Source of the DNA: Enorma phocaeensis
GTDB lineage: Bacteria > Actinomycetota > Coriobacteriia > Coriobacteriales > Coriobacteriaceae
Assembly (NCBI RefSeq): GCF_016901575.1
Contig: NZ_JACJKQ010000009.1
Span: forward strand, 1-64,000
Reading direction: 5' to 3'
Length of the DNA stretch: 64,000 nt
This document shows, in pieces, positions 27,382 through 36,475 of the stretch. How positions within the stretch are numbered: the first letter of the stretch is position 1; each line of letters opens with the position of its first letter. A program made the translations under genes and the position numbers. The notes beneath the pieces are model-generated. The model made no database searches. It saw only the letters and a list, made by a program, of their open reading frames with translations, and was not told where the DNA came from.

Positions 27382-27636
27382 GGTCGATAACGATGTGCTC
27401 TGGGTAAACGGCGTGCATCGCATGCCCTGCCATGGTCAAGCTTGATGTTCCCTGGGCAGAAAGCAGGCGGCTGAAGCCCCGTCCTGGTCGATATCGGTGT
27501 CATCTGGGCAGTGAAGCGGAGCGCGGTGATGGGCGAGCTGGGCAATTCGATCGCCATGGTGTCCAGCGGGCGCAATTCTTGACCACCGAGACCTCAAAAG
27601 CGAACAGGAGGTGCCCAGCGTTCGAGGAAATTGACC
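27382..27636. repeat. 52-bp-phased bipartite motif array A (3 direct + 2 inverted copies)
   Basis: Plus-strand copies of GGTCRA-N12-CTGGG start at 27382, 27434 and 27486 (52 and 52 bp apart). Inverted copies, GYCCAG-N12-TTGACC, start at 27561 and 27613 (52 bp apart). In every copy the two 6-bp boxes start exactly 18 bp apart while the 12-bp centre varies. The gap across the inversion is 75 bp. No gene is seen between 27205 and 27720; an eroded further copy may lie near 27330-27356. Confidence 0.8.
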
Positions 27637-34583: not shown

Positions 34584-34659
34584 GGGTCGGGCGCATCCGA
34601 TTTGACCGTATCGTCGACGGGGTTATGAATGGCCTGCCCAGCATGCGTGTGAACCGACC
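34584..34659. repeat. Bipartite motif, one clear and one decayed inverted copy (array C)
   Basis: GCCCAG-N12-CCGACC at 34636-34659 is an inverted copy of the motif found in arrays A and B. Exactly 52 bp earlier (34584-34607) a second unit keeps TTGACC but has lost the GCCCAG box. A TTGACG at 34703 is near the next phase. The rest of the 34483-34995 gap holds no gene that I can see. Confidence 0.5.
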
Positions 34660-36117: not shown

Positions 36118-36475
36118 GGTCAAATTGCCTGTTCCCTGGGCAGAAGACGTGCATGCAGATGGTGCGCGCGGTCAAATTGGATGGGCTCTGGGCACGGGCT
36201 GCGCGACCAGCGATACTGAGTGGTCAATATAGTGGACCGCTGGGCAGGCGGCGCATCGATAGAGGGGTTATCACGAGGTTGGCAAGCGATGTTCTGCCCA
36301 GCGAAGCGATGAGATTGCCCCGAGCGTCAACGGGTTCGCATCTTCTTTGCCCAGATGTCGTCCTAGGTGACCATAAGGTCCGGGCTGTTGATGTCTCCCT
36401 GCCCAGCATTCGACTTAATTGACCATCGAGCTGGGGCGCTGTACCGCATGTGCCCAGCAATCATATCGATTGACC
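36118..36475. repeat. 52-bp-phased bipartite motif array B (3 direct + 4 inverted copies)
   Basis: Direct copies GGTCAA-N12-CTGGGC start at 36118, 36170 and 36222 (52, 52 bp). Inverted copies GCCCAG-N12-TTGACC (or a close variant) start at 36296, 36349, 36401 and 36452 (53, 52, 51 bp); the first of these has a 13-bp centre. The step across the inversion is 74 bp, almost the same as in array A (75 bp). The first two units also share CGTGCAT downstream with array A. No gene lies between 35983 and 36615. Confidence 0.85.

Follow-up and report, generated by a model that had tools for sequence, protein, structure and literature searches.

Phased, opposed arrays of a bipartite motif in Enorma phocaeensis and related Coriobacteriia, and their association with one clade of PD-(D/E)XK proteins

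Results and discussion

An intergenic stretch of the Enorma phocaeensis genome contains three direct copies of the bipartite motif GGTCAA-N12-CTGGGC, or close variants of it, facing four inverted copies. This array is probably one of about 16 chromosomal binding arrays recognised by a dedicated protein of the PD-(D/E)XK family. The DNA analysed, hereafter called the window, comprises the first 64,000 nt of contig NZ_JACJKQ010000009.1 (genome G000 in the comparisons below), and its features are listed in Table 1.

The array and its companion sites

All seven sites described in the original prediction were found, with successive spacings of 52, 52, 74 (centre), 53, 52 and 51 bp. The single copy for which a box offset of 19 bp had been given is the site at nt 36296, in which the middle is 13 bp instead of 12 bp and the left box is degraded to GGGCAA. 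The boxes extend one base further at each outer side, reading TGGTCAA ... CTGGGCA. Units agreed at the boxes (0.6 to 1.0) and between them were mostly at background (0.25 to 0.45), a pattern that is not that of a tandem duplication. A second array, at nt 27382–27636, has three forward and two inverted sites and lies between convergent gene calls, and the lone degenerate site 5′ of the PD-(D/E)XK gene is likely the remnant of an upstream array found in relatives.

Table 1. Array sites and the proposed binder gene in the 64-kb window
Feature	Position (nt)	Strand	Remarks
Array 1 F1 (GGTCAA-N12-CTGGGC)	36118..36141	+	motif scan
Array 1 F2	36170..36193	+	52 bp from F1
Array 1 F3	36222..36245	+	52 bp from F2
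Array 1 R1, degenerate GGGCAA-N13-CTGGGC	36296..36320	-	74 bp after F3 (centre)
Array 1 R2, variant GGTCAC	36349..36372	-	motif scan
Array 1 R3	36401..36424	-	motif scan
Array 1 R4	36452..36475	-	motif scan
Array 2 F1, variant GGTCGA	27382..27405	+	motif scan
Array 2 F2	27434..27457	+	motif scan
Array 2 F3, variant GGTCGA	27486..27509	+	motif scan
Array 2 R1, centre spacing 75	27561..27584	-	motif scan
Array 2 R2	27613..27636	-	motif scan
Lone degenerate site 5′ of PD-(D/E)XK gene	34636..34659	-	
PD-(D/E)XK (MTES_1575/DUF559-like) protein, 328 aa	34996..35982	+	motif VDLGW...GLEYKG..H...DDRR; proposed array binder

The exact motif matched 42 times in the 2.36-Mb genome, compared with 0 matches for the reversed control, so the array is not a product of chance. 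The copies were not randomly spaced, 52 ± 1 bp being the distance at which they clustered, and relaxed scanning of the DNA around the matches grouped them into about 16 arrays, in which 2–4 forward sites at 52 ± 1 bp face 2–5 inverted sites at the same spacing. Each bipartite site spans roughly 24–26 bp, and the centre of these arrays is 74/75 bp or, less often, 64, 127 or 138 bp. Across arrays, the units resembled one another at the boxes; elsewhere they agreed only at background level, apart from weak preferences within the 12-bp middle and for a base at +34. The weak C at +34 was present in units of G000 and of the relative G019; the units of another relative, G065 (L211–L228), possess an additional conserved CGTAGCA at +32 to +38, possibly a third contact. 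Some arrays in G000 are decayed, with single sites at L011 and L023 and incomplete arrays at L013, L018 and L014, indicating that not every locus requires a complete array.

Distribution and box variants among Coriobacteriia

In a survey of 400 Coriobacteriia genomes, the GGTCAA..CTGGGC box occurred in many copies only in G000 (42), G019 (43) and G345 (26), and no copy was present in G243, which belongs to the same genus as G000. The gap 3′ of tyrS is an array position common to G345 and G000, being decayed in the latter. At the tyrS locus of G065 and G283, members of another genus, arrays of the 52-bp plan were observed with a different box, TGGTCAC...TATGGGY. An initial reading based on the exact box, that of an oddity of three genomes, was dropped because this locus revealed both the box variant and two further array-rich genomes. 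Exact sites numbered 82 in G065 and 47 in G283 (0 for the reversed control), forming about 18 and about 12 arrays, respectively. A pattern describing the architecture only (GGTCA-N14-TGGG twice at 52 bp) detected G000, G019, G065 and G283 among the 400 genomes, plus one isolated match in G225. In G400, a third box, TGGACG...TATGGA, makes up one array adjoining the genome's own nuclease gene and is hardly found elsewhere.

The array carriers are some gut bacteria related to Collinsella, few in number: five genomes with dispersed arrays (11 to 18 each) and one with a single array. Clustering at 52 ± 1 bp, proposed as a property to look for in other Coriobacteriia, was found in G019, G065 and G283. 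The box differs between lineages, with GGTCAA..CTGGGC, GGTCAC..TATGGG and TGGACG..TATGGA as the three variants, as expected for a co-evolving binder. The genomes are drafts, and array limits and gene calls are computational.

A viral origin was rejected, there being 0 box matches in viral contigs, and distant pattern matches (Tetrasphaera, Micromonospora and others), single in each case, were taken as chance. De novo scanning, which covered 200 kb of G243 and 200 kb of G141, did not reveal any intergenic array of comparable phasing built from a different box. One locus of G141 contained clusters of repeats.

Selection on boxes and spacing

Twelve arrays at orthologous loci of G065 and G283 were compared. 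Box bases were identical at 623 of 636 positions (98.0%), compared with 2179 of 2909 (74.9%) for inter-box bases and 4524 of 6164 (73.4%) for the flanks (Fisher p about 1e-52 for the identity contrast). Array length was equal in 10 of the 12 pairs, and indels were about 16-fold rarer inside the arrays, with 2 events in 3.5 kb of array versus 43 in 4.8 kb of flank. Since boxes and lengths are kept while the inter-box DNA drifts like the flanks, both the boxes and their spacing are under selection, which is shown directly for this pair of genomes. G000 and G019 share several array positions, at which only the boxes align within the arrays, whereas the adjacent non-array DNA is 74–95% alike where alignable.

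Helical phasing

The sites of one half had been predicted to face the same side of the helix, and the spacings and centres, which fall on whole turns, support this. The most informative genome was G345, with looser arrays in which same-strand spacings are 63, 73/74, 83/84, 95 and 103 bp; 27 of the 28 deviate by at most 1 bp from n × 10.5 with n = 6 to 9 (R = 0.94), and the remaining one, 103 bp, is near 10 turns. For G000, G019 and G065, in which the spacing is nearly always 52 bp, periodicity is read from the centres alone. The period that best fitted the 54 centres from four genomes was 10.4 bp (R = 0.96), and for the centres of G065, ranging from 53 to 200 bp, it was 10.45 bp (R = 0.97; maximum of 500 random sets, 0.76). 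The half-arrays of G345 are unequal, for example 84 versus 74 and 63 versus 74, so RNA or cruciform pairing in register is not possible there.

The PD-(D/E)XK protein and its linkage to the arrays

Of the 24 subfamily members that were aligned, 23 matched the Pfam family REase_MTES_1575, the best with E 7e-7; the window protein itself did not match. In the alignment, D230, E241 and Y242 are invariant and the catalytic D...(E)x(K/Q) motif is present. Searches with NCBIfam and PADLOC yielded nothing informative about the protein. Its AlphaFold model (pLDDT 88.5) showed a weak local match, over 70 columns, to homing endonuclease I-Bth0305I in the catalytic domain of that enzyme (rmsd 3.1, probability 0.95, E 0.22); the search of the PDB returned nothing below E 0.001 and no strong overall match.

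The wider PD-(D/E)XK family was detected in 60 of the 61 Coriobacteriaceae genomes tested, often in gaps, and the ubiquity of the family had led to the gene being regarded as unlinked to the arrays; restriction to the close subfamily, together with a tree, overturned this view. The close subfamily occurs in 25 of 67 genomes and is absent from the array-free G243. In a tree of 29 subfamily members, the six array-adjacent proteins (G000:C88, G019:C34, G283:C4, G065:C11, G345:C8 and G400:C128) formed one clade with 100% ultrafast bootstrap. Every clade member has an adjacent array, compared with 0 of the 23 other subfamily members (Fisher 2e-6), and paralogues from array-bearing genomes fall outside the clade and lack one. 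The co-occurrence with a PD-(D/E)XK-like gene that the original prediction raised thus holds for a specific clade, a protein of which is present in each of the six array-bearing genomes, while near relatives of G345 possess neither the clade gene nor arrays. Guilt by association across these six genomes strongly suggests that the clade protein is the array binder.

Five of the six clade genomes have an array about 240–480 bp upstream of the nuclease gene. The window genome has its intact array 135 bp downstream of the gene, with just one degenerate site upstream. A homing endonuclease cleaves its recognition site and copies its own gene; in the system described here, the gene adjoins a single array and most arrays carry no nuclease gene. 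In two of the six clade proteins, EYQ replaces the EYK of the nuclease motif, and catalysis may therefore be dispensable. Copies of the wider family number 2 to 9 in nearly all Coriobacteriaceae genomes.

Genomic placement, copying and loss

The arrays overlap no gene called by the simple codon-usage finder employed. Among the 58 arrays of G000, G019, G345 and G065 for which both neighbours were called, the neighbouring genes were co-directional in 40, convergent in 16 and divergent in 2; the test for enrichment in divergent gaps assumed an expectation of 22% and used 61 arrays, recounted as 58. No neighbour gene or distance rule common to the arrays was found.

Likeness between loci indicates that some arrays have been copied or converted. 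The arrays of L075 and L079 are 77% alike over 317 bp, the likeness stopping at the outer boxes on both sides, and L079 possesses one more box past each end of the L075-like stretch. L020 and L021 share 66% over about 296 bp as well as the rare 138-bp centre. In G019 (L081:6491-8831), the nuclease gene lies between two arrays that share 83% over 247 bp, the result of a recent array duplication or conversion. The rplL-galU gap of G019 is occupied by a full array, that of G000 retains a single leftover site, and the other genomes in which the gap was readable have no site there. This 1.1-kb gap in G019 (L083 / L101) also contains short direct repeats, TTTGGCGACCGAGAGGCGAGGGAC, beside the array. 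No consistent flanking repeat that could represent a target-site duplication was found among 37 arrays, although old duplications could have decayed.

An IS3-family-like element (ORF start MYDRDTVELAL) is inserted between two array sites in G345 (L090:6440-7760), and the start of a related IS3-like ORF, a remnant, lies just after two sites in G000 (L018:6540-6730), which suggests that arrays act as insertion havens or targets. Other sequences adjoin arrays in G345. CAGCA-N6-GCCAC words in alternating orientation were observed beside two arrays (L096:6510-6930 and L099:5680-5920), with a period of about 71 bp in L096, and a piece of rpoB-like coding sequence, apparently a duplicated fragment, lies directly beside an array at L099:6495-6833.

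Comparison with known systems

The REPtron, comprising TnpAREP/RAYT and REP/BIME, is the closest analogy in plan (PMC8266576, PMC2817692). In both, a single nuclease-type gene adjoins its own elements while many copies are dispersed in intergenic regions, and the element sequence co-varies with the protein clade. Insertion of ISPpu9 in REPs (PMC8450116) has a counterpart here in the IS3-like element within an array. However, TnpAREP belongs to the HUH enzymes and its substrates are palindromic hairpins in single-stranded form (PMC8266576, PMC2817692), whereas the protein linked to the arrays has the PD-(D/E)XK motif and not that of an HUH (Y1) transposase, its relatives match MTES_1575, and the sites are non-palindromic, bipartite, asymmetric and in strict helical phase. 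Copy number differs as well, about 11–18 arrays versus usually over 100 REPs. Membership in the REPtrons fails on enzyme family and element structure. The protein instead resembles REase_MTES_1575 / DUF559 (Vsr-like) proteins in its D...ExK(Q) motif and in the Pfam matches of its subfamily.

Tn7-like ends possess several asymmetric sites in two opposed sets, and TnsA is also a PD-(D/E)XK enzyme. The arrays share with them asymmetric sites of about 22–26 bp in two opposed sets, but no TnsB/TnsC was found near the arrays, no cargo is carried, the phasing is even and the loci are fixed and conserved. MatP/matS, ParB/parS and Noc sites are dispersed, each recognised by one binding protein, and are short single palindromes; the arrays differ in being asymmetric, opposed and phased multi-site elements with a protein of another family. 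A partition-like site, one of the functions originally proposed, is unlikely in the usual sense, as 11–18 arrays are scattered through the genome. Rep iterons are helically phased direct repeats, close-packed at about 2 turns with one origin per replicon, in contrast to the spacing of 5–9 turns, the two opposed halves and the 11–18 loci of the arrays. The original prediction knew of no described element with this plan; likewise, a literature search, covering few subscription papers, found neither a described system matching the arrays nor a member of the MTES_1575 family with a dedicated dispersed array.

Alternative explanations

Several other readings of the arrays were weighed against recognition by the clade protein at resident chromosomal sites. 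By analogy with what is thought for TnpAREP and REP, the PD-(D/E)XK protein might spread non-autonomous arrays by cutting at them followed by copy-repair, any host benefit being secondary. The sequence shared between L075 and L079, between L020 and L021 and by the G019 pair, the joint lack of clade gene and arrays in close relatives of G345, and the varied occupancy of the rplL-galU gap agree with such dispersal. However, selfish spread alone is insufficient for boxes and spacing held at fixed orthologous loci with neutral inter-box DNA, target-site duplications were not found, most arrays have no common inter-box sequence and gene conversion between resident arrays would also account for the similar pairs; dispersal is accordingly considered unlikely. 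Somewhat more doubtful is that the PD-(D/E)XK gene merely hitch-hikes beside arrays bound by another protein. The presence of the wider family in nearly every genome, often in gaps, and the downstream position of the window genome's sole intact array at the gene would fit, but a single clade goes with the arrays, it is found wherever they are, and changes in the box track the branches of that clade.

That the arrays are operator clusters regulating transcription of neighbouring genes is improbable as a general account. Autoregulation is plausible where an array precedes the nuclease gene, as in five of the six clade genomes, but at other loci the genes ahead of the arrays are unrelated housekeeping genes (tyrS, rplL-galU and others), convergent gaps hold 16 of 58 arrays and divergent gaps only 2, and no regulon theme was found among the neighbours. 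The original prediction also considered an end complex of the Tn7 type, and a derivation from the ends of a DDE transposon, Tn7-like or other, or from its solo MITEs, would account for the paralogous copies among the arrays and for a general plan resembling that of TnsB site sets. This reading was judged very improbable: no transposase or cargo lies between the half-arrays, the only transposase genes found being the later IS3-like insertion inside the L090 array and a remnant at L018, no target-site duplication accompanies them, and the boxes are selected at fixed sites with mostly unshared inter-box DNA. MITEs in particular were rejected because inter-box identity is at background and just three array pairs are alike over most of their length. 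Least credible is function as RNA, that is, as a terminator or structured transcript with pairing of forward and inverted boxes. These boxes are complementary by construction, but the unequal halves in G345 bar in-register pairing while their spacings keep the DNA helical turn, and avoidance of indels spans the whole array.

Proposed function and implications

The role in a chromosomal nucleoprotein site was ranked first because selection acts at fixed loci without a common regulon. One protein unit would occupy each bipartite site of roughly 24–26 bp, and the units on one side would share a helix face, at intervals of 5 turns in this genome and 6 to 9 in one relative. The PD-(D/E)XK clade protein would bind cooperatively along this face of the DNA, and proteins bound to the two opposed half-arrays, being in helical register, would touch, so that the DNA is looped or wrapped into one compact complex. 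Such a complex would form a nucleoprotein site of higher order on the chromosome, close to the ends of genes, and would serve architecture, supercoiling or genome upkeep. Candidate roles may include chromosome architecture, control of the protein's own gene, local supercoiling where genes end, and nuclease-driven dispersal with later use; a putative silencing or architectural role, as originally suggested, is possible.

With slightly less assurance than the assignment of the array itself, it seems reasonably likely that the protein and its arrays represent an undescribed class of chromosomal system, in which a PD-(D/E)XK protein and dispersed, phased, opposed arrays, with the register under selection and the sequence re-tuned together with the protein, provide a genome-wide set of nucleoprotein sites. 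The drifting inter-box DNA against held boxes and spacing offers an unusually clean contrast, so that helical phasing in vivo can be studied as a natural experiment. The paired protein and box variants of related genomes permit direct tests of recognition. If true, bacteria would have a further, new kind of protein-DNA architecture that spans the chromosome, and one member of a large uncharacterised family of PD-(D/E)XK proteins would gain a role open to testing.
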